Origin: Croceicoccus sp. YJ47
Lineage (GTDB): Bacteria > Pseudomonadota > Alphaproteobacteria > Sphingomonadales > Sphingomonadaceae
Length of the DNA: 64,000 bases
Direction of reading: 5' to 3'
Assembly: GCF_016745095.1 (NCBI RefSeq)
Contig: NZ_CP067087.1
Coordinates: 1,786,501 to 1,850,500, forward strand
How positions within the stretch are numbered: position 1 is the first letter of the stretch; each line of letters opens with the position of its first letter. Shown piece after piece: positions 815-57,942 of the stretch. Made by a program: the position numbers and the translations under genes. The notes under the pieces are model-generated. The model did no database searches. It saw only the letters and a list, made by a program, of their open reading frames with translations, and was not told the DNA's origin.

Positions 815-2056
815 ATGGACGTAGCGGTATTCCATCCCGGCACGCAGCACAGCTGGCAGACCGCCACCGCGTTGCAGCAGCTGGACCGGCTGGCCTGGTT
901 CGCGACCAGCATCTTCTACCGGCCAGACCGGTTCCCCTACAGGCTGGAACGCTATGCGCCCGGCGCGCTGGGCCGCATGATGCATCACGAATTCTCACGC
1001 TTCGACCATCCCGCGCTCGATCCGTCCAACGTGCGGACGGCGGGCATGCTGGAATGGCTGGAAAGGATTGCCGCGCGGCTCAAGGCGCGCCGCGTCGCCG
1101 AAACGTTCGACCGTTGGGGCAATGCCCGTTTCGGAAGACAGATCGGCAAGGCACTGACATCCGACGCGCCGTTTCACCTATGGGGTTTCAACAGCTCTGC
1201 GCTGACCAGTTTCGAGATTGCGAAACGGCATTCGCGCACCTGCATCCTCGACCGGACCATCGGCGACTGGCGGGCCTATAACCGCGCGGTCGACAAGATC
1301 TGCGAAACCCATGCCGACTGGTTTCCGGCCGGGCTGGGCCGGATCGACGCGGCAAAGATCGCGCTGGACGACCGCGAATATGCGCTGGCCGACACGATCC
1401 TGTGCGGGAGCGAGTTCGCCGCGGAGACGGTGCGCCGCGAATCGCCGGTTCCGGGTGTCGCGGACAAGGTGCGGGTGCTGCCCTATTGCTTCGACGAAAC
1501 GCTCTTCGCACGCACGACCCCGGTCGCGCCGGTGCCGAGAGACGGCCCCATCCGCTTTCTCTTCGTCGGGCTCGTCGCACCGCGCAAGGGGATACAGCAT
1601 GTGCTGGAGGCGATGGACCGAATTCCCGCATCGCAGGCGCAGCTTACCATCGTCGGGAACATGGACATTCCGACCTCGGTCTTCGCCCGCTATGCCGACC
1701 GGGTCACCTACCGCAGCACGGTCCCGCGGTCCCATATCCCGCAGATCATGGCCGAGCATCACGCGCTCCTTTTTCCCAGCTATTTCGAGGGGTCGGCGCT
1801 TTCGCTGATCGAGGGGCTGGCATCCGGGCTCGCGCTGATCCAGACGCCGCAATCGGGCAATGGCGCGACGCCGGATACCGGCATCATGCTGGACCGGCCC
1901 GATACGGACCTGCTTGTCGAGGCGATGCTGTCCGTGATCGAGGACCGCGACCGGCTCGACACGATGCGCCGCAACGCCGTGGGCGAATCGCGCAAATACA
2001 GCTTTGAAAACTATCGCCGCAATATCGCCGCCCTGCTCGACGACCTCGAATCCTGA
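815..2056 (+). CDS. Glycosyltransferase, GT4-type (GT-B fold)
   Basis: A 413-residue cytoplasmic glycosyltransferase. The ATG at 815 is preceded by AGGGGG and opens directly into the first Rossmann strand (MDVAVFHPGTQHSWQ), so it is preferred over the upstream in-frame start. The C-terminal half carries the GT-B nucleotide-sugar pattern: IRFLFVGLVAPRKGIQHVLEA near residue 245, then the FPSYFEGSALSLIEGLASG region, where the EGS...E pair is the usual E-x7-E donor-binding motif. Donor and acceptor cannot be read from sequence. It is the only plus-strand gene of the polysaccharide cluster, and its stop lies 3 nt from the convergent stop of the flippase gene. It probably adds one sugar to the repeat unit or lipid-linked precursor. 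Confidence 0.88.
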   Translation: MDVAVFHPGTQHSWQTATALQQLDRLAWFATSIFYRPDRFPYRLERYAPGALGRMMHHEFSRFDHPALDPSNVRTAGMLEWLERIAARLKARRVAETFDRWGNARFGRQIGKALTSDAPFHLWGFNSSALTSFEIAKRHSRTCILDRTIGDWRAYNRAVDKICETHADWFPAGLGRIDAAKIALDDREYALADTILCGSEFAAETVRRESPVPGVADKVRVLPYCFDETLFARTTPVAPVPRDGPIRFLFVGLVAPRKGIQHVLEAMDRIPASQAQLTIVGNMDIPTSVFARYADRVTYRSTVPRSHIPQIMAEHHALLFPSYFEGSALSLIEGLASGLALIQTPQSGNGATPDTGIMLDRPDTDLLVEAMLSVIEDRDRLDTMRRNAVGESRKYSFENYRRNIAALLDDLES

Positions 2057-2059
2057 GGG

Positions 2060-3445
2060 TCAGCGCGAGGCGCGAAACCGTTCGGGCAGGCGCTTCTCGA
2101 CCAGTCGCCACACGCGAAAGGGCGCATCGCGCAAGGCGGAGCGGTTGACCATTTCGAGCACCACGGCCTGATACCCGACCCAGCCCAGCATCGCGACGTC
2201 GAGCAGGAGAAGCCCGATCGCGGCGCCGAGCGGGCCGAGCTCATGCGTGAGCAGATACGCGACCGGCAGCATCAGGATCGTGAGCAGCATGAACACATAG
2301 CTGAACCGCCCATGCTGATTGAGCGCGATGATCAGGTTCGAGATCGGCTGCCATATTCCGTTTACGAGCATCACGCACGACATCACCGCAATCAGCAGCC
2401 AGTCGGGCTCGACCGTGCCGGAGGTCCAGATCTCCACCACCCACTGGCCGAGCAGCAGCAGCCCGAAGAACGCCGGCACCAGGATGAAAAGGCTCGCCAC
2501 GAGGCTGAGCGCGAAAAGATCGGCCTTGCGTTCGGTATGGTCGGTCGCCGCCGCGACGGTGAAATGCGGCATCGTCGCCTGATTGACCACGCCGGTAAGC
2601 TGAATCGCTGTCCGGGTCAGCGTGCGCACGACGGTGAACACCGGAACCGCCGCCGGTCCCGCCGCTGCCCCGACGACGAGAACCAGCCCCTGAATCGACA
2701 GGAGATAGGCGATGGGGACCGTCATCAACGCCATCGCCGGGCGGAACAGGCGCCGCAATTCCCCGAAGTTCGATTGCCAGCGCAGCGAGAGCAGCCAGCC
2801 CGCGCGCCTGTGCAGGAATGCGGACATCGCAGCGAGGCCGATCACCCGCCCGACGAAATAGGCGATGGCAACATGCAGCAGCGTGCCGCCCAGCATCACG
2901 GTCGCCAGCGCCATGAGGGTATAAAGCAGCGTCGTGATCGAGGTGATATACTGGCTTTGTGCGTAAAGGCCGGCTGCCCGCATCCCGGCCATGAGGATAC
3001 CGTTGCTGAACGAGGTGACCGCGAACAGGATGAGCACGAAGGTCACCTCCTGCGCCTGACCGTCGCTCGCCGCCTGCGCGAATTCCAGCATGTGGTCGGC
3101 GGGGCCGAAGATCAGCACCGCGCTCACCGCCAGGATCAGGACACCGATCGCCGCCATCAACGCGCGGATCGCCTGATAGGTGGAAAGCGCGGAGGCCCGG
3201 TCCCCGCGGGCGACATCGGCGGTCATGTCGTTCGCCGCCGCGCCGCTGAAGCCGAGGTCGGCCATGTTGAGATAGGCCGGAATGGTAAAGAGGATCAGCC
3301 ACACGCCATAGGTGTCCAGCCCCCAGTACGCGGTGAAAACCGGCACCGTGACGAGCTGCACGACGAGGTTCACGATCTGGTTCGAGCCATTCGCGCTGAT
3401 CGCGCCGACGAGGCCCGACCCGAAGATTTCCTTGAACTTTATCAT
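2060..3445 (-). CDS. Wzx-like polysaccharide flippase / O-antigen transporter family membrane protein
   Basis: A 461-residue integral membrane protein with about 12-14 hydrophobic segments spread over its whole length, the profile of the MOP-superfamily lipopolysaccharide flippases. The N-terminus (MIKFKEIFGSGLVGAISANGSNQIVNL) matches the usual start of these transporters, with a short amphipathic lead followed by helix 1 carrying a polar GSNQ patch. The expected role is to move undecaprenyl-linked repeat units to the periplasmic face of the inner membrane. It is the last gene of the minus-strand polysaccharide operon, 18 nt after the GT gene. No Wzy polymerase or chain-length regulator is seen in the window, so the rest of the pathway lies elsewhere. 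Family confidence is good; substrate is unknown. Confidence 0.87.
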   Translation of the reverse strand: MIKFKEIFGSGLVGAISANGSNQIVNLVVQLVTVPVFTAYWGLDTYGVWLILFTIPAYLNMADLGFSGAAANDMTADVARGDRASALSTYQAIRALMAAIGVLILAVSAVLIFGPADHMLEFAQAASDGQAQEVTFVLILFAVTSFSNGILMAGMRAAGLYAQSQYITSITTLLYTLMALATVMLGGTLLHVAIAYFVGRVIGLAAMSAFLHRRAGWLLSLRWQSNFGELRRLFRPAMALMTVPIAYLLSIQGLVLVVGAAAGPAAVPVFTVVRTLTRTAIQLTGVVNQATMPHFTVAAATDHTERKADLFALSLVASLFILVPAFFGLLLLGQWVVEIWTSGTVEPDWLLIAVMSCVMLVNGIWQPISNLIIALNQHGRFSYVFMLLTILMLPVAYLLTHELGPLGAAIGLLLLDVAMLGWVGYQAVVLEMVNRSALRDAPFRVWRLVEKRLPERFRASR

Positions 3446-3463
3446 GCAGCGAAAACTTTCGGT

Positions 3464-4681
3464 CTAGCGACCCAGCATATCTAGCATCTCGCGCTCTACC
3501 GCGTCGATGATCGATTCCCTCGCCCACCGTTCCCGGGCGCGTTTTCGTGCCTCTTCGCCGAGCCGGTCGGCCCTCGCCGGATCGTCGGCCAGCGCCGCGA
3601 TCGCATCAGCCAGCGCGGCCGGGTCTTCCGGCGGGACGACGATGCCGCAACCCTCGACCTCGTCGGCAAGGCCGGTGCCGCGCGCCGCGGTCGCGACGAC
3701 CGGCCGGCCCGATGCGAGCATGTTCGTGAGTTTCGACGGCAGCACGAGATCGAGCGCATCGGCGAGCTGCGGCAACAGATGCACGAACGCACCCGACAGC
3801 ATCTCTCCCATCCGCTCCGCCGGTTGAAGGTCGTGGAACTGCACATGGTCGAGCCCGCTCGCCAGCGCTTGCAGCCGCTTGCGGTTCGGCCCCTCGCCGC
3901 AAATCACGAAGGCGAGATCGTCGCGATGCGAGAGCCGCCGCGCCGCCTCGATCACGATGTCCAGCCCCTGCTTGTTCGCGATATTGCCCGAATAGAGCGC
4001 GATCTTGCGCTGTCCGACCCCCCATTCCTGGCGATAATCGCCAAGCGGCGGGGCAGCCGGATCGACCAGATGATTGGCCCAGTTGCGCATCTCGACGATC
4101 TTTTCCGGTGCGACGCCCTTCGCCGCCAGCCGGTCGCGCATCTGCGGGCTGATGGTGGAGACCCGGTCCGCGCTTTGCAGGAGGCGCCCCTCGACCGTGT
4201 CGGCCATGCGGGCCAGCGCGGATTTGCCGTCGATCAGGCCCGTGGCGATCGCGGCCTCGACCTCGAAATCCTGCACGTGGATCCACAGCTTTGCCCCGCC
4301 CAGCTTCGCGGCCAGCCATGCGACCGGCACCGAAAGCAGCGCCGGCGCGACGGCAAGCACGATATCGGGGCGCTTGGCCGCCTGTGAAATTGCGGGCGCG
4401 ATGGCGGAGAGCGCAAAGCTGCTGTGATGGAGCAGGCGTTTCGCACCGCTCGGATTTTCGGGGATGTAATGCGGACAGCGCGTGATCCGTACGCCGCCTT
4501 GCTTCTCCGATTGCCAGCCGTGGTGCCCGCTATGGGCCTTCCACTGCGGGTAGTAGGGCTGTGCCGCGATGACCGAGACATCGTGCCCGCGCGCCGCCAT
4601 GCTTTCGGCGAAACCGGCGCTATAGGGACCGATGCCGACCGGCTCGGGACTGTAATTGATGCCCAGGAGCAGGAGTTTCAC
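3464..4681 (-). CDS. WcaI-like glycosyltransferase (GT4 type)
   Basis: A 405-residue glycosyltransferase that starts with GTG at 4681. The N-terminus LLLLGINYSPEPVGIGPYSAG is the hallmark of the WcaI/WbuB-type family found in colanic acid and related exopolysaccharide loci. In the C-terminal domain, KIALYSGNIANKQGLDIVIEA (about residue 228 on) and the LVLPSKLTNMLASGRPVVATA segment form the nucleotide-sugar site. The family often transfers fucose or related deoxy-sugars. Its place directly after fcl in the same operon fits a GDP-fucose donor, but that is inference from context. Confidence 0.88.
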   Translation of the reverse strand: MKLLLLGINYSPEPVGIGPYSAGFAESMAARGHDVSVIAAQPYYPQWKAHSGHHGWQSEKQGGVRITRCPHYIPENPSGAKRLLHHSSFALSAIAPAISQAAKRPDIVLAVAPALLSVPVAWLAAKLGGAKLWIHVQDFEVEAAIATGLIDGKSALARMADTVEGRLLQSADRVSTISPQMRDRLAAKGVAPEKIVEMRNWANHLVDPAAPPLGDYRQEWGVGQRKIALYSGNIANKQGLDIVIEAARRLSHRDDLAFVICGEGPNRKRLQALASGLDHVQFHDLQPAERMGEMLSGAFVHLLPQLADALDLVLPSKLTNMLASGRPVVATAARGTGLADEVEGCGIVVPPEDPAALADAIAALADDPARADRLGEEARKRARERWARESIIDAVEREMLDMLGR

Positions 4682-4708
4682 GCCGAACGTTCCGCAGCGC
4701 CGGCCGGA

Positions 4709-5665
4709 TCAGCCATTCATCACGACACGGCGCCCGCCATCGCTCTTCAGGAAATCATCATAGGCCGTCGCGATCCCCTCGCGCAGCGCGATGCTCGGCG
4801 ACCATCCCATGTCCCGCAGCATGGTCGAATCCATGAGCTTGCGCGGCGTGCCATCGGGCTTCGTCGTGTCGAAATCGAGATCGCCCTCGAACCCGACGAC
4901 CTCGCACACCAATTGTGCCAGTTCGGCGATGGTGATGTCGTCGCCATAACCGACATTGACGTGGCTTTCGTCCGAGTAGTTCTCCATCAAGAAAACGCAG
5001 GCATCGGCCAGATCGTCCACGTGGAGGAATTCGCGGCGCGGCGTACCCGTGCCCCAGATCGGGATGGAACCGTCGCTCGCGTTCTTCGCATCATGCGCCT
5101 TGCGGATCATGGCGGGCATCACATGGCTCGTCGCGAGATCGAAATTGTCGCCGGGGCCGTAGAGATTGGTGGGCATGGCGCTGATGAAGTCGGAGCCATA
5201 TTCGCGGCGATACGCCTGACACAGCTTGATCCCGGCGATCTTGGCGATGGCATACCATTCGTTCGTCGGTTCGAGCGGCCCGGTCAGCAGCGAATCTTCG
5301 GTGATCGGCTGCGGTGCGAGCTTGGGATAGATGCACGACGAGCCGAGCATCAGCATCTTCTCGACACCGTTGCGATGGGCGGCATCGACGATATTCGCCT
5401 CGATCATCAGGTTGTCGTAAAGAAATTGCGCCGGATAGCGGTCATTGGCGAGGATACCGCCGACCCGCGCCGCAGCGACGATGGCGGCGTCGGGGCGATT
5501 CTCCTCGAACCATGCGCGCACCTTGTCCTGCTCGCGCAGGTCGGTCGAGCGGTCCGATGTCAGGATCGTGCAGTCCATGGCCTCCAGCCGGCGCACGATG
5601 GCGGAACCCACCATGCCGCGATGGTAAGCTACGTAAACGCGCTTTTTCGCAAGGGAATAGCTCAT
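4709..5665 (-). CDS. fcl: GDP-L-fucose synthase (GDP-4-keto-6-deoxy-D-mannose 3,5-epimerase/4-reductase), with variant Rossmann motif
   Basis: A 318-residue extended SDR enzyme that should convert GDP-4-keto-6-deoxymannose to GDP-L-fucose with NADPH. The ATG at 5665 is chosen because the family begins here; a longer in-frame extension has no family similarity. Visible motifs are [15 protein letters not shown] (catalytic Ser), [16 protein letters not shown] (catalytic Tyr-x3-Lys), [12 protein letters not shown] and [17 protein letters not shown], all typical of Fcl/WcaG. The odd feature is the dinucleotide-binding loop: residues 12-20 read VAYHRGMVG, so the first Gly of GxxGxxG is Tyr14 (codon TAC). 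Activity may therefore be reduced or lost. It lies between a GT2 gene (85-nt gap) and the WcaI-like gene. Confidence 0.92.
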
Positions 5666-5750
5666 TGGGGGTCTTCCGAATTGATGATCGTCGATGGGTT
5701 GCGATTGGGTCGGTCTGCGATGATGCGGAGGTAGGGCGCGGCGAGATGCT

Positions 5751-23385: not shown

Positions 23386-25187
23386 ATGGCAAGCTCAAAG
23401 ACCAGGGCCTCGCGCCTGCGTGGCGGTTCCACACCATCGAACGAACGTCCGCCGGCGGATACTCTGTCTCCGCTTTCGCTGCTGCTCGGCATGGCGCGGC
23501 AATATCCCGGCCGGCTCGCGGCGCGATTGCCGCGCTGAGCGTGACGGCGGCGGCGACGCTGGCTATCCCCTCGGGTTTCAAGCTGGTGATCGACCGCGGT
23601 TTTTCGGGCGATGGCGACATTGCGCGCTGGTTCGAATATCTGCTCGTCATCGTGGTGGTGCTGGCCATCGGCACGGCGCTGCGCTTTTATTACGTGTCAT
23701 GGCTCGGCGAACGGATCGTCGCCGATCTGCGCGTGCGGGTGCAGGACAATCTGCTCTCGTTGCCGCCCGGCTTTTTCGAGGAAAACAGCCCGGCCTAGAT
23801 TTCGTCGCGCATGACGTCGGACACCGCCATTATCGAGCAGGTCGTCGGCAGCACCGTATCGGTCGCGCTGCGCAACGTGCTCATGGCGGTGGGCGGCACG
23901 ATCTATCTGTTCGCGCTGACGCCGGAACTGACGGCGGGATTGTTCATCCTCATTCCCATCGTCATCGTGCCGATCGTGTGGTTCGGGCGGCGGGTGCGCA
24001 ATCTTTCCCGGTCGAGCCAGGACCGCATCGCCGATGTCGGCGCCATGGTGTCCGAAGTGCTGGGCGCGATGAAGATCGTGCAGGGCTTCAACCAGGAAGA
24101 CCGCGAACGCGCGCGTTTTGCCGCCGCCGTCGACCGCAGTTTCCAGACCGCGCGCCGCCGCATCATCATCCGGTCGATCATGACCGGCCTCGTGATCTTC
24201 CTCATCTTCACCGCGCTGACGCTGCTCATGTGGAAAGGCGCCTCCGACGTGGCGGCGGGGCGCATCACCGGCGGCACCATCGCCGCCTTCGTCATCACCG
24301 CCGGGCTGGTGGCGGGCGCGTTCGGCTCGCTGACCGAGGTGTACGGCAACCTTCTGCGCGCGGCGGGCGCGACGCAGCGGCTGGGCGAATTGCTGGCCGC
24401 GCGTCCCGCCATCGCCGCGCCCGCCCGTCCGCAGGCGCTCCCCGATCCGCCGCGCGGAGCGATCGCGTTTCGCGACGTGACCTTCCGCTATCCCACCCGG
24501 CCCGACGCCGCCGCGCTCGAGGATTTCTCGCTCGTGGTGGAGCCGGGCGAGACGGTCGCCATCGTCGGCCCGTCGGGCGCGGGCAAGTCGACCCTGTTTC
24601 AGCTCGTCGCGCGCTTCTACGATCCGCAGGCGGGCAGCGTGCGCGTCGACGGGGTGGAGCTGACCCGTGCGGACCCGGCGGAGGTGCGCCGCCGCATCGC
24701 GCTGGTCCCGCAGGAAAGCACGCTGTTTGCCGCCAGCGCACGCGACAATCTGCGCTATGGCCGCTGGGATGCGAGCGATGCGGAGATTGCCGACGCGGTC
24801 GAGGCCGCCAATGCCGCGGAGTTCCTCGCCGCCCTGCCGCAGGGGCTGGACACGCAGCTGGGCGAAGGCGGGGCGCGCCTGTCCGGTGGTCAGCGGCAGC
24901 GCATCGCGATTGCCCGCGCGCTTTTGCGCGATGCGCCGATCCTGCTCCTCGACGAAGCGACGAGCGCGCTCGACGCCGAGAGCGAGCGGCTGGTGCAGGG
25001 CGCGCTGGACGAGCTGATGCAGGGGCGTACGACGCTGGTCATCGCGCACCGGCTCGCGACCGTGCGCGCCGCCGACCGCATCATCGTCATGGACGGGGGC
25101 CGCATCGTCGAGGAAGGCACGCACGACAGCCTCAGCGCGTCGAGCGGGCTCTACGCCCATCTCGCCGGCCTGCAATTCGACAGTTGA
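23386..25187 (+). pseudogene. ABC exporter (transmembrane + ATPase), broken by a frameshift and an in-frame stop
   Basis: Together the frames encode one MsbA-like half transporter. Residues 1-46 are read from ATG 23386. At about 23523-23529 one nucleotide appears to be missing (RLAA then IAALSVTAAATL in the next frame), because the original frame hits TGA at 23536. The second frame continues the first helices to ...FFEENSPA, where TAG at 23796-23798 interrupts it. Four codons later the same frame goes on with MTSDTAIIEQVVGS from 23811 to the end. The tail (458 residues) is intact and has helices 3-6, Walker A GPSGAGKST, signature LSGGQRQR and Walker B ILLLDEATSALD. The family usually has GAG (Glu) where TAG stands. 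The intact tail lacks the first two helices, so normal transport is unlikely. A sequencing error is possible for each lesion. Confidence 0.85.
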
Positions 25188-42119: not shown

Positions 42120-43897
42120 ATCAACCGTGCCCGCATCATGCCGCGAAGAGCGTTGCCAATGTGAAAACCGTCCTTCAGATCGTCGAGCGTCAATTCCGCC
42201 TCCCGTGCCACCCCTTCGTCGAGCAATTTCTGCCGCATGACGCCGGGCAACAGCCCGAGCGATGCAGGCGGGGTCAGCCATGCACCATCGCGTTCGACAA
42301 AGATATTGGTGAAGCTGCCCTCGGTCACGCGGCCGTCCTGCCGGACCAGAACCGCCTCCTCCGCGCCGAGACCCGCCGCCGCGAACCGCGCCGCATCGTA
42401 GAAATCGCGCAGGCTGGTCTTGTGCGACAGGCGCCAGTCATCTGCCTCCACCGGCAAGTCGTGGGGCATGCAGGGCACCGGCTGCGTCAGCGGGTCGGGC
42501 ATGGCACCCCCCTCCAGTGTCCAGGATCCGTCCTGCGCCAGCATCACGCGCAAACGCGCCGGTTCGCGGTGGGTAAAGCAGAACGCCTGAATATCGTTGC
42601 GAATGGCATGGCGGTCGCAGGCAAAGCCGAGCGCATGCGCGCTCTGCTTCAACCGTTCGAGGTGGCGTTCGACCATCGGCACACCGATCAGCGGATCGAA
42701 ATGCATCGTCTCGATGAGGTGGAAGGGCGCGAGATCCGGCGACGCGAACCGTCCCTTCACCAGGCATTCGTCCCATTCGGCCCGCGCGTCGGACCCCGCG
42801 GTAATCGCCGAGCCCACGCCCAATATCGCATCGCCCCCCGCATCGAGGCGCAAGGTGCGGATCGCCACGTTGAACGCCGCATCGCCATCCGGGTCGAACC
42901 GCCCGACGGCCCCGCAATACACGCCCCGCGCCGCGTCCTCCTCCCGGTGGATCAGCTCCATCGCCCGGATCTTCGGCGCGCCGGTGATCGAGCCGCAGGG
43001 CATGAGTGCGCGCAGCACGGCGCCGGCATCGCGTCCCGGCGCCAGATCCGCGGTGATCGTCGTCACCATCTGATGCACGGTCGGGTATGTTTCGATGGCG
43101 AAGGGCGCCGCGACCCGCACGCTGCCCGGCACGGCGACGCGGCTGATGTCGTTGCGCATCAGGTCGGTGATCATCAGGTTTTCGGCCCGGTCCTTCGCGC
43201 TGTGAAAAAGCGCATCGGCGAGCGCGCTGTCCTCCTCCGGCGTGGCCCCGCGCGGGCGGGTGCCCTTCATCGGTTTCATCGTGACGGTGCCGTCCATGAC
43301 CGCAAAGAACAGCTCGGGCGAGAAGGACAGCGTCCAGTCGGTGCCATCGAACACGATGCCGCCGTGGCCCGCCGCCGCGCGCCCCCGGATCGCGGCATAG
43401 ATGGCGAGCGGATCGCCGCGCCAGCGCCCCGCCAGCGCAAAGGTCAGATTCGCCTGATAGATATCGCCGGCCTCGATCGCGTCGCGCAGCGCGGCGAAAC
43501 GGCGGGCGTATTCGTCGAATTTGCACGTAGGGCGAAGCGGCGAGAGATGCGTCGGCGGCAATCCGTTTTCCGCAATCCGCGCCGCCAGCCATTGCGGCAC
43601 GTCGCCCGCCGAAATCGTTTCGCAGCCATCGAACGCGGCGAGCCAAACGAGCGGTGCATCACCTGCGCGGGCAAGTGGCGCCAGCCGCGGTTCGAGCGCG
43701 AGCCCGGCATCGTAGGCGATCTGGCCTGCGACATGGTGCCCGGCGGCAAGCGCCTCGCGCGCGGCGGCAAGCGCCGGTGCGACCTCGTCCCCGCGCCGCG
43801 CGACGAACGTCGCCCGCGGCTCGCGATAGAGCCGCGCCGGAGCGGGATTTTCCGCCAGCGGACGCGCATCGTCGAGAAGGATGAAAGCTTCGCTCAT
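42116..43897 (-). CDS. pabB: Aminodeoxychorismate synthase component I fused to aminodeoxychorismate lyase (PabB-PabC)
   Basis: A 593-residue bifunctional folate-pathway enzyme. The PabB part (to about residue 360) has KPMKGTRPRGATPEED, LMITDLMRNDISRV and LMPCGSITGAPKIRAMEL of the chorismate-binding fold. The rest is a class IV PLP aminotransferase-like PabC domain, with RLRVMLAQDG, the Lys in LSHKTSLRDFYDAAR and VTEGSFTNIFVE. Together they turn chorismate plus glutamine-derived ammonia into 4-aminobenzoate. ATG 43897 is preferred (MSEAFILLDDARP). PabA is not in the window. Confidence 0.94.
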   Translation of the reverse strand: MSEAFILLDDARPLAENPAPARLYREPRATFVARRGDEVAPALAAAREALAAGHHVAGQIAYDAGLALEPRLAPLARAGDAPLVWLAAFDGCETISAGDVPQWLAARIAENGLPPTHLSPLRPTCKFDEYARRFAALRDAIEAGDIYQANLTFALAGRWRGDPLAIYAAIRGRAAAGHGGIVFDGTDWTLSFSPELFFAVMDGTVTMKPMKGTRPRGATPEEDSALADALFHSAKDRAENLMITDLMRNDISRVAVPGSVRVAAPFAIETYPTVHQMVTTITADLAPGRDAGAVLRALMPCGSITGAPKIRAMELIHREEDAARGVYCGAVGRFDPDGDAAFNVAIRTLRLDAGGDAILGVGSAITAGSDARAEWDECLVKGRFASPDLAPFHLIETMHFDPLIGVPMVERHLERLKQSAHALGFACDRHAIRNDIQAFCFTHREPARLRVMLAQDGSWTLEGGAMPDPLTQPVPCMPHDLPVEADDWRLSHKTSLRDFYDAARFAAAGLGAEEAVLVRQDGRVTEGSFTNIFVERDGAWLTPPASLGLLPGVMRQKLLDEGVAREAELTLDDLKDGFHIGNALRGMMRARLI

Positions 43898-43952
43898 GCC
43901 GCCCCTGCATGGCGGCTGTCGCTGCGGGCGGCAAGGGCGAAGCGCTCGCGGC

Positions 43953-55038: not shown

Positions 55039-55509
55039 ATGGACCGTCACGATGTTGCCCTGATCGAAGCGCTGCAACGCGATTCATCGCGGCCCATCGC
55101 GCAGCTTGCCGAAACGCTCGGCCTGTCCGCCTCGGCGTGTCACCGGCGGATCCGTGCGCTGGAATCGCGGGGATTGATCGCGGGCTATATCGCGCGGGTG
55201 AATCCGCGCGCGCTCGGCCTCGCGATCGAGGCGTTCGTCGAAATCACGCTGGTCAGCCAGAGCCGCGAGACGATGGACCGGTTCGAGACGGCCGTGGGCG
55301 ATTTCGACGATATTCTCGAATGCCATCTGATGAGCGGGGCGCATGATTACCAGCTGCGCGTGGCGGCGGCCGATCTGTCCCAATACGACCGGATCCACCG
55401 CGAATGCCTGTCCCGCCTGCCCGGTGTATCGTCGATGCGGTCGAGCTTTTCCATCCGGCGGATCAAGCGGATGCGCGCCTATCCGGTCCCGGACGGGGCG
55501 GGCGGTTAA
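55039..55509 (+). CDS. Lrp/AsnC-family regulator of alanine dehydrogenase
   Basis: A 156-residue regulator with an N-terminal HTH (DVALIEALQRDSSRPIAQLAETLGLSASACHRRIRALE) and a C-terminal RAM domain (LMSGAHDYQLRVAAADL). The ATG at 55039 follows a good ribosome site. By position it should activate or repress the divergent ald gene in response to alanine, as in other proteobacteria (inference). Its stop shares TTAA with the convergent ftsK stop. Confidence 0.92.
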   Translation: MDRHDVALIEALQRDSSRPIAQLAETLGLSASACHRRIRALESRGLIAGYIARVNPRALGLAIEAFVEITLVSQSRETMDRFETAVGDFDDILECHLMSGAHDYQLRVAAADLSQYDRIHRECLSRLPGVSSMRSSFSIRRIKRMRAYPVPDGAGG

Positions 55510-57488
55510 AGCACCTGCCCGTCCTTGTCGCGGTAGATTTCGCGGCGTCCCACATGGTTCGCCGGCCCGACCAGACCGTCCTTCTCCATCCGCTCGACCC
55601 ATTTGGACGCGGTGTTGTAGCCGACGCCCATCTGCCGCTGAATCCAGCTGGCGGAGACTTTCTGTGCCTCGAACACCATCTGGCACACCTGCATGTATTT
55701 GCGGTCGTCGGGATTGTCCGCCGCCCCGTCGAGATCGTCGAAGCTGAACCCGCCGCCGTCCTCCGGCTCCTCGGTGACCGAATCGACATATTCAGGTGCC
55801 CCCTGCGCGCGCCAGTGGTCGGCGACCGCCTCGACCTCCTCGTCCGAGACGAACGGGCCGTGCACGCGGGTCAGCGGTTTCGAACTCGCCTTGTACAGCA
55901 TGTCGCCCTTGCCGAGCAGCTGTTCCGCGCCCTGATCGCCGAGGATCGTGCGGCTGTCGATGCGGCTGGTGACGTGAAACGAGATGCGGGTCGGCATGTT
56001 CGCCTTGATCACGCCGGTGATGACATCGACCGAGGGACGCTGCGTCGCCATGATGAGGTGGATGCCCGCCGCGCGCGATTTCTGGGACAGGCGCTGGATC
56101 AGCACCTCGATCTCCTTGCCCACCGTGATCATGAGATCGGCAAGCTCGTCCACGATCAGCACGATCTGCGGCAGCACCTCGTAATCGAGCTGCTCTTCCT
56201 CGAACAGTTCCTCGCCCGTTTCGGGGTCGAAGCCGGTCTGCACCCTGCGGCCGAGCGGCTTGCCCTTGGCGGCGGCGGCCTTCACCCGTTCGTTGAAGCC
56301 GGTGAGGTTACGCGCGCCGATGCTGCTCATCATCCGGTAGCGGCGCTCCATCTCCTCCACCGCCCATTTCAGGGCGCGGACCGATTTGGCAGGCTCGGTC
56401 ACCACGGGCGACAAAAGATGCGGAATATCGTCGTAGCTTTTGAGCTCCAGCACCTTCGGATCGATCAGGATGAGCCGGCATTCGGCGGGCGTCAGCCGAT
56501 AGAGCAGCGAGAGCAGGATGCAGTTCAGCCCCACCGACTTGCCCGAACCGGTCGTGCCCGCGACCAGCAGGTGCGGCATCGCGGCGAGGTCGGCGACGAT
56601 GGGTTCGCCCGCGATATCCTTGCCCAGGATGATCGGCAGCATGCCCGAATGATCGGCAAAGGCGGCGCTGGTGATCAATTCACGAAACGCGACCATCTGC
56701 CGGTCCGCATTGGGAAGCTCGATCCCCATGACGGTCTTGCCCGGAATGGGCGACACGCGGGCGGAAATCGCGCTCATGTTCCGGGCGATGTCGTCGGCGA
56801 GGCCGATGACGCGCGCGGCCTTCACGCCGGGGGCGGGTTCGAGCTCGTACATGGTGACGACGGGGCCGGTGCGCACGGCGGTGATCTCGCCCTTCACCTT
56901 GAAATCGTCGAGCACGTTTTCGAGCAGGCGGGCGTTGCGCTCCAACGCCATCTTGTCGAGCTTCGGCGCGCTATGTTCCGGCGGCTCGGCGAGGAGTTCG
57001 GGGCTGGGGAGGGCGAAATTGCTGTTGAAGAAATCGCCCTGGCTTGGCCGGGTGCGCATCTCGGCGGGTTTGGGCGGCGCCGTGGGGTCGGAGATTTCGG
57101 GCGCGCGGCGGGGCGGGCGCGGCGCGGCGTCGGCCTCGTCACCGGCGAAATCATCGTCGCCCGACGGGGCGGCGGGCGCGGCGCGGCGGCGTTCGGCCTT
57201 CGGTTCGGGCGCGGTATCCTGATGTGGCGCATGATCGCGCGCTGGGCGCAGGCGGTGCAGCATCGCGGGCAACGTCATCAGCCCGCGCCAGTCGATCGCG
57301 AACACCCGCCCGGCAAGGACCACCCCCGCCGCCAGCGCCGCAATCGCCAGCGCCAGAATGATCCACCCCGCATACACCGCGCCGGCCAATCCCGCGACCC
57401 CGGTGATCAGCATCGCGCCGCCCAGCCCCGCGATCCCGCCCATCCCCGCAGGAAGTCCGCCGACCGGATTGTCGAACACCAGCGCCAT
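55506..57488 (-). CDS. ftsK: FtsK/SpoIIIE DNA translocase, main part after an in-frame amber codon
   Basis: A 660-residue stretch of FtsK. It opens in the fourth-helix region of the membrane domain (MALVFDNPVGGLPAG...), passes through a Pro/Arg/Glu-rich linker (about 75-150) to the alpha domain (VLDDFKVKGEITAVRTGPVVTMYELEPAPGVK), then the motor with Walker A AGTTGSGKSVGLNC (about 305-315) and Walker B QIVLIVDELADLM, and ends in the gamma winged helix (MVFEAQKVSASWIQRQMGVGYNTASKWVERMEKDGLVG). In frame with it and 6 nt upstream is TAG (57495-57497), which separates it from the first membrane helices. ATG 57488 lies 5 nt after AGG, and GTG 57491 is also possible. Motor residues are intact. Confidence 0.88.
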   Translation of the reverse strand: MALVFDNPVGGLPAGMGGIAGLGGAMLITGVAGLAGAVYAGWIILALAIAALAAGVVLAGRVFAIDWRGLMTLPAMLHRLRPARDHAPHQDTAPEPKAERRRAAPAAPSGDDDFAGDEADAAPRPPRRAPEISDPTAPPKPAEMRTRPSQGDFFNSNFALPSPELLAEPPEHSAPKLDKMALERNARLLENVLDDFKVKGEITAVRTGPVVTMYELEPAPGVKAARVIGLADDIARNMSAISARVSPIPGKTVMGIELPNADRQMVAFRELITSAAFADHSGMLPIILGKDIAGEPIVADLAAMPHLLVAGTTGSGKSVGLNCILLSLLYRLTPAECRLILIDPKVLELKSYDDIPHLLSPVVTEPAKSVRALKWAVEEMERRYRMMSSIGARNLTGFNERVKAAAAKGKPLGRRVQTGFDPETGEELFEEEQLDYEVLPQIVLIVDELADLMITVGKEIEVLIQRLSQKSRAAGIHLIMATQRPSVDVITGVIKANMPTRISFHVTSRIDSRTILGDQGAEQLLGKGDMLYKASSKPLTRVHGPFVSDEEVEAVADHWRAQGAPEYVDSVTEEPEDGGGFSFDDLDGAADNPDDRKYMQVCQMVFEAQKVSASWIQRQMGVGYNTASKWVERMEKDGLVGPANHVGRREIYRDKDGQVL

Positions 57489-57494
57489 CACGGC

Positions 57495-57875
57495 CTACAG
57501 CAGCACCATCGACAGCAGCAAAAGGCCGAGCGGCCGCCACCAGCGCGGGCGCGCGCCATCATCCTCCGGGTCCGCCAATTGCCACAGCCGCCGCGCAAAC
57601 ACGTAGATCAGCGGCAGCAGCAGCGCCGCGACCGGCCCGAACAGCACGAGCAGCCGTTCCGCGGCAAAGGCACCGGCCTGCCCCATCCAGTTGGCGACAT
57701 CGGTGCCCGCCGCCGTGCTGGGCGAGGGGTCGGTCTGGCTATAGCTGAGCAGCGCGAGCGCCAGGAACAGCGCGAGCGCGAAGAGCGCGGCGGCCCCTGC
57801 CATTTCCAGAGTGCGGCTTACGCTGCGCTGCCATGCCGCGCGCCAGTCGGGCGCGCCCCGTGCCGTGGTCGCCAT
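57495..57875 (-). CDS. ftsK: FtsK N-terminal membrane fragment, ended by an in-frame amber codon
   Basis: 126 residues containing the first transmembrane helices of FtsK (ALFALALFLALALLSYSQTDPSPSTAAGTDVANWMGQAGA is the conserved helix 1 plus loop), then LLVLFGPVAALLLPLIYVFARRLW and LGLLLLSMVLL. The next codon is TAG (57495-57497), and the same frame then continues as AVMALVFDNPVGG. ATG 57875 has GGGGGG upstream; ATG 57887 would add four residues. Either the gene is split and the downstream part is re-initiated, or this is a nonsense mutation or a sequence error. The last helix of the membrane domain lies after the stop. Confidence 0.8.
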   Translation of the reverse strand: MATTARGAPDWRAAWQRSVSRTLEMAGAAALFALALFLALALLSYSQTDPSPSTAAGTDVANWMGQAGAFAAERLLVLFGPVAALLLPLIYVFARRLWQLADPEDDGARPRWWRPLGLLLLSMVLL

Positions 57876-57942
57876 GCGGCCCCCCATTGAACGAACGATC
57901 GAACGAAATCGCCGCGATTATGCGCCGCGCCGGGACTCCGCG

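Follow-up and report, generated by a model that had tools for sequence, protein, structure and literature searches.

In the RefSeq assembly of the marine bacterium Croceicoccus sp. YJ47, the gene for the cell-division DNA translocase FtsK is interrupted by an in-frame TAG, raising the question of whether the organism makes the protein in two pieces, carries a nonsense mutation, or has an ordinary gene that was recorded wrongly. The gene lies in the 64,000-nucleotide stretch of DNA analysed here (the window), within a single-contig genome of 3.35 Mb with a completeness of 99.91%. Based on comparison of sequences, we estimate at roughly 95% the probability that the TAG is a consensus sequence error and that the organism most likely possesses an ordinary full-length ftsK. 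The deposited sequence does contain the stop; the organism itself very likely does not.

The ftsK gene and its in-frame TAG

The features of the locus are as follows.

55506..57875, minus strand: ftsK, 789 codons and a stop codon apart from the TAG; ATG at 57875, with a second in-frame ATG upstream at 57887; aligned to the two nearest relatives over residues 1-789
57498..57875, minus strand: ftsK piece before the stop, 126 residues, comprising the first part of FtsK_4TM
57495..57497, minus strand: in-frame TAG at residue 127, within the third hydrophobic stretch; a serine codon in the two nearest relatives
57491..57496, unstranded: altered six-base palindrome, presumed to be a miscalled site; CGGCCT here versus CGGCCG in both near relatives
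55506..57494, minus strand: ftsK piece after the stop, comprising the remaining membrane domain (by position), FtsK_alpha, the FtsK_SpoIIIE motor and FtsK_gamma

The minus-strand frame is continuous on both sides of the TAG, confirming that the stop is in frame, and the flanking open reading frames extend over 57495-57887 (130 aa) and 55506-57491 (661 aa). Pfam profiles identified FtsK_4TM on the first piece (profile positions 4-102 of 171) and FtsK_alpha, FtsK_SpoIIIE and FtsK_gamma on the second, so that the four domains of an FtsK/SpoIIIE translocase occur in the expected order across the two pieces. No other stop interrupts the frame, in agreement with the initial annotation, which had described the gene as otherwise intact. 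That annotation had also placed the stop between membrane helices, in the region of the fourth, which proved incorrect: residue 127 falls well inside the third hydrophobic stretch (residues 116-134). FtsK_SpoIIIE has a single match in the whole genome, and no second FtsK was found there. Relative to the two nearest relatives, ftsK shows 70 and 91 differences, 59 and 73 of them at third positions, and apart from the TAG the gene looks to be under constraint.

The nearest named relatives, among the best 80 of at least 515, are C. hydrothermalis JLT1 (G002) and an uncultured Croceicoccus isolate (G009), whose FtsK proteins are 99% and 98% identical to that of YJ47, respectively; identity over the window DNA is approximately 96%. 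The YJ47 gene shares with the FtsK/SpoIIIE DNA translocases of Erythrobacteraceae the four domains, the gene extent and, for these two relatives, 98-99% protein identity, and differs by the TAG alone. Matches to ftsK were obtained in 59 of the 60 genomes searched (YJ47 included), and among the best matches the TAG occurs in the YJ47 copy only, stops being otherwise present only in G020. In that 86%-complete genome, the ftsK match (G020:C1:1252991-1255117) contains an internal TGA and TAA.

A stop at codon 127 was observed in 0 of the 108 related loci covering the codon, in any aligned piece; these loci, which remain from 109 fetched after exclusion of one that falls short of the codon (L026), are not all independent, some being one record twice, and were drawn partly from the best 80 of at least 515 relatives. 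The residue at this position is small in all 108 (A 43, S 38, G 18, C 7, T 2). As far as the collections compared show, the TAG thus appears private to the YJ47 assembly. A naturally divided gene would be expected to keep its break in at least one relative; none of those compared does, and this comparison speaks against a divided ftsK.

Base changes at CGGCCG and GCCGGC

Approximately 0.4 Mb of YJ47 was examined for gene lesions, and about 0.34 Mb of the 3.35 Mb was aligned to G009, which served as the reference for two-way counts because G002 is more distant in segments B and C than in A. TCGGCCG is changed to TAGGCCG at 7 of 149 occurrences in YJ47, as against 0 of 132 with the two genomes swapped, and when the seventh base is A, C or T, the same change is seen at 0/171, 0/166 and 0/222 sites (0/559 in total). 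GCCGGC is replaced by GTAGGC in 15 and by GTAAGC in 9 of 950 strand readings (24/950; reverse 0/854), and the matching TAGGC change is found at 0/749 ACCGGC, 0/911 CCCGGC and 0/484 TCCGGC words (0/2144 in total). Background rates for the same base change are 1/1237 at TCGGCG (reverse 2/1233) and 1/669 at TCGGCA (reverse 0/652). These exact-word counts confine the changes to the palindromes CGGCCG and GCCGGC in their exact form, with a few per cent of such sites altered. Within the stretches compared, YJ47 shows one and the same change repeatedly at a given motif and its relatives do not, as expected of a consensus error; the changes are motif-specific, assembly-specific and frame-blind.

They are also blind to coding, with no sign of selection against protein-changing events. 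The 29 listed motif events (28 distinct, one being listed twice), whose patterns were chosen after earlier change contexts had been seen, comprise 15 missense, 7 nonsense (6 distinct), 2 silent and 5 noncoding changes; private codon changes of YJ47 as a whole are silent in 3412 of 4255 cases (80%). When 64 six-base palindromes were ranked by excess of protein-changing private changes, GCCGGC came first (p 4e-5) and CGGCCG second (p 0.0014), both uncorrected and in a test where a single stop may be counted under both motifs if their sites overlap. Corrected for the 64 tests, p for CGGCCG rises to about 0.09, and GATATC follows close behind (0.0015 uncorrected). Private substitutions in the motif set, seen versus expected, amount to 279/177 in YJ47, 290/260 in G002 and 95/126 in G009. 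Among six-base words with at least 40 sites, ranked by plain loss, CGGCCG is first and GCCGGC sixth; since the G002 control likewise loses CGGCCG at a raised rate (41/180), loss alone is a weak indicator, and the signal lies in what the sites change to. Taken together, small private indels are weakly, and not clearly, enriched near the motifs, with 7 on a motif versus 3.4 expected and 16 within 8 nt versus 11.8 expected.

General low assembly quality was the first explanation tried and was rejected, as private changes in the window genes are not enriched in protein-changing ones; of 52 private one-base indels, 41 occur in runs no longer than 3. The private changes of the window genes (silent, changed, stop) number 704, 154 and 1 in YJ47, 397, 97 and 1 in G002, where the stop is not real and reflects an interval (42282-43950) listed in the wrong frame, and 388, 63 and 0 in G009.

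Alignment of the window with the two near relatives revealed a second broken gene.

23386..25187, plus strand: ABC exporter of 600 aa (named by eye); one base is deleted at 23523 on a GCGGCCGC site, and a CGGCCG site reading CGGCCT coincides with a TAG at 23796-23798

Both the deletion and the TAG of this gene fall on CGGCCG sites of the relatives. The change of TCGGCCG to TAGGCCG is shared by ftsK, the ABC exporter, a thioredoxin-like gene and fusA, and other genes are changed at GCCGGC. In fusA (G000:C1:2411068-2413161; L203 11068-13161), the sole EF-G match above the curated cut-off in the genome, a TAA occupies codon 75 on a CGGCCG site of G009. The gene for ribosomal protein L3, rplC (named by eye; L203 15108-15975), has a frame-breaking 5-base deletion 3 nt from a GCCGGC. 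A growing bacterium should not survive a broken fusA or rplC. The lesions in rplC and in fusA, the only full-length EF-G gene, therefore argue for error and not mutation, and the changes are blind to essentiality as well as to reading frame, which again is the behaviour of a consensus error.

Among genes intact in both references, raw frame lesions were recorded in 24 of 221 for YJ47, 10 of 207 for G002 and 4 of 192 for G009, the control lists being untrimmed. Eight of the 24 YJ47 genes (116, 503, 432, 187, 298, 1481, 570 and 255 aa) were set aside by eye, either because the frame was judged wrong or because the lesion preceded the probable start or affected only the final codons, and one lesion ahead of the probable start of an 873-aa ORF was also dropped. 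Manual reading left 17 lesions. Eleven of them overlap a CGGCCG or GCCGGC site and 14 have one no more than 8 nt away; the corresponding shares of coding positions are 1.3% and 4.6%. All 8 stops among the 17 overlap such a site. Three lesions lie more than 8 nt from a reference site, in a Cdc48-like gene, lpd and a flavin-oxidoreductase gene (named by eye), so some other source of error, or genuine change, is present as well.

Restriction-modification loci and the proposed miscall

Two restriction-modification loci and a further methyltransferase match are present in the genome.

0.60 Mb (L223 1477-3811): C5-cytosine methyltransferase, NaeI-family endonuclease (PF09126) and Vsr endonuclease in a row, some 200 bases from tRNA-Arg
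1.14 Mb (L220 399-2610): NotI-family endonuclease (PF12183) adjoining a C5-cytosine methyltransferase
2.97 Mb: third, weaker C5-methyltransferase match

The NaeI-family protein matches PF09126 with 198 bits and the solved NaeI structure 1ev7 with an E-value of 7.4e-32. The NotI-family protein matches PF12183 over the whole profile (341-342 bits); it gave no sequence match among solved structures and no PADLOC match. Among 14 same-genus genomes, the NaeI family was detected in YJ47 only (1/14), and the NotI family exceeded the cut-off in three, with 342 bits in YJ47 and 28 bits in two others. Both G002 and G009 carry C5-methyltransferases of their own.

NaeI acts at GCCGGC, whereas NotI acts at GCGGCCGC and its relative EagI at CGGCCG; a literature search on NotI together with EagI gave nothing useful. 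As in the known NaeI and NotI type II restriction-modification systems, the PF09126 and PF12183 genes of YJ47 each adjoin a C5-cytosine methyltransferase gene, and the specificity of these methyltransferases for GCCGGC and CGGCCG would follow from the neighbouring endonuclease family. The NotI-family member would need to act on the six-base CGGCCG, as EagI does, and not on the eight-base GCGGCCGC. What points most strongly to methylation is that the two error motifs, derived from the alignments alone, agree with the two enzyme families. The review PMC4081073 prints the NaeI site as GCC|CCG, which we take for a misprint of GCCGGC.

From these observations we infer the methylation, the sequencing platform and the miscall itself. 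The C5-methyltransferases of the NaeI-family and NotI-family type II loci would modify GCCGGC and CGGCCG, and in single-molecule sequencing of native DNA the modified sites would distort the signal. A few per cent of them would then be miscalled in a stereotyped manner, pyrimidine-CGGCCG becoming TAGGCCG and GCCGGC becoming GTAGGC or GTAAGC. Because such a miscall writes TAG or TAA, a false stop would arise wherever the frame fits, as in ftsK. The contig names of the relatives appear to be of a short-read assembler type, which fits the absence of the error there.

Comparable errors have been published. In a Klebsiella benchmark with default models, Dcm sites accounted for about 70% of nanopore consensus errors (PMC6591954), and five nanopore-only genomes contained 1533-5670 mismatches ascribed to modifications; known 5mC counts did not distinguish the good genomes from the bad there, and suspicion fell on unusual modifications (PMC10687267). 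Modification-linked nanopore consensus errors are also described in PMC11610573. YJ47 resembles these cases in having stereotyped, motif-fixed mismatches in one assembly only, with false lesions as a result, and differs in its motifs (CGGCCG and GCCGGC) and in an outcome that writes TAG or TAA; its sequencing platform is presumed.

The conclusion that the TAG is an error rests on the kind of change, the exact motif, the blindness to coding, and EF-G, and we regard it as a strong inference rather than proof. Sequence error had been the third option offered for this stop, beside re-initiation and nonsense mutation, and is the only one to find support, through the motif-specific class of changes across the compared stretches.

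Competing explanations for the stop

A real and recent nonsense mutation, with the strain living on truncated FtsK or low-level read-through, is very unlikely. The base does stand as written in a single-contig, 99.91% complete assembly, and the gene for RF1, the factor that terminates at TAG, is intact. Against this, the identical change recurs at the identical six-base site, frame-blind, across the assembly, the same class of change also breaks the only full-length EF-G, and ftsK otherwise looks constrained (59/70 and 73/91 differences at third positions). The mutation proposed in the initial annotation is accordingly unsupported, the stop belonging to a motif-specific class of change in the compared stretches.

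Slightly less probable again is that the restriction-modification loci, or repair at their sites, truly change pyrimidine-C to TA at CGGCCG and GCCGGC. Real changes driven by the two systems, with the ftsK and EF-G stops tolerated through unseen read-through, would be strictly motif-specific, as is observed, and a Vsr repair endonuclease gene adjoins the NaeI-type methyltransferase. However, deamination of 5-methylcytosine is established to yield C to T, not C to A or CC to TA; moreover, the cell should not survive if the TAA in its only full-length EF-G were genuine, and no selection against protein-changing events is seen.

It is hardly credible that FtsK functions as two interacting membrane pieces, with termination at the TAG and re-initiation at GTG 57491 or ATG 57488. 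These start codons follow the stop at distances of 3 and 6 nt, with an AGG 5 nt ahead of ATG 57488, but the A of this AGG stems from the TAG change itself: both near relatives have TCGG where the window has TAGG, and the presumed ribosome-binding site is present only because the change supplies the A. The stop is also absent from relatives (0/108 loci covering the codon), the break would cut the third hydrophobic stretch at its middle, and the Val-Met pair of the presumed start is kept in 8 of 40 aligned rows. A literature search on FtsK amber mutants gave nothing useful.

Amber suppression or recoding, in which TAG would be read as an amino acid, agrees with the open frame on both sides of the TAG and yet has a negligible likelihood, given that RF1 is present, that stops of the same class include TAA besides TAG, and that the suppressor tRNA for which a search had been suggested did not appear, no CTA anticodon occurring among the 44 identified tRNA genes, a count that covers tRNAs outside rRNA operons. 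This scope arises because the rRNA operons were not visible in the search: 16S rRNA was unmatched in the YJ47 genome, the same search being positive in only 9 of 14 genomes. The tRNA search returned 45 matches, 44 of them named by ARAGORN. The remaining match is weak (31 bits; L155 101-171), was not called by ARAGORN and is perhaps a degenerate tRNA. Ile-GAT and Ala-TGC tRNAs are absent from the YJ47 tRNA list, which, like the missing 16S rRNA, may reflect rRNA operons that were masked or withheld.

With the TAG read as a consensus error, the ftsK finding goes away as biology, FtsK being most likely whole. Although the genome is closed and scored as 99.91% complete, false stops and frameshifts are apparently numerous in it, with raw lesions in 24 of the 221 genes compared, and most of the kept lesions (14/17) lie on or beside sites that the restriction-modification systems of the strain itself probably recognise. 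A motif check could screen claims of gene loss or split genes made from such assemblies, and conversely a miscalled motif may predict the specificity of an uncharacterised methyltransferase.

Elsewhere in the chromosome, a segment of about 40 kb at G000:C1 ~1994050-2033680 (L171-L173) is unaligned to the compared stretches of both near relatives and ends at tRNA-Phe; it is likely an island.
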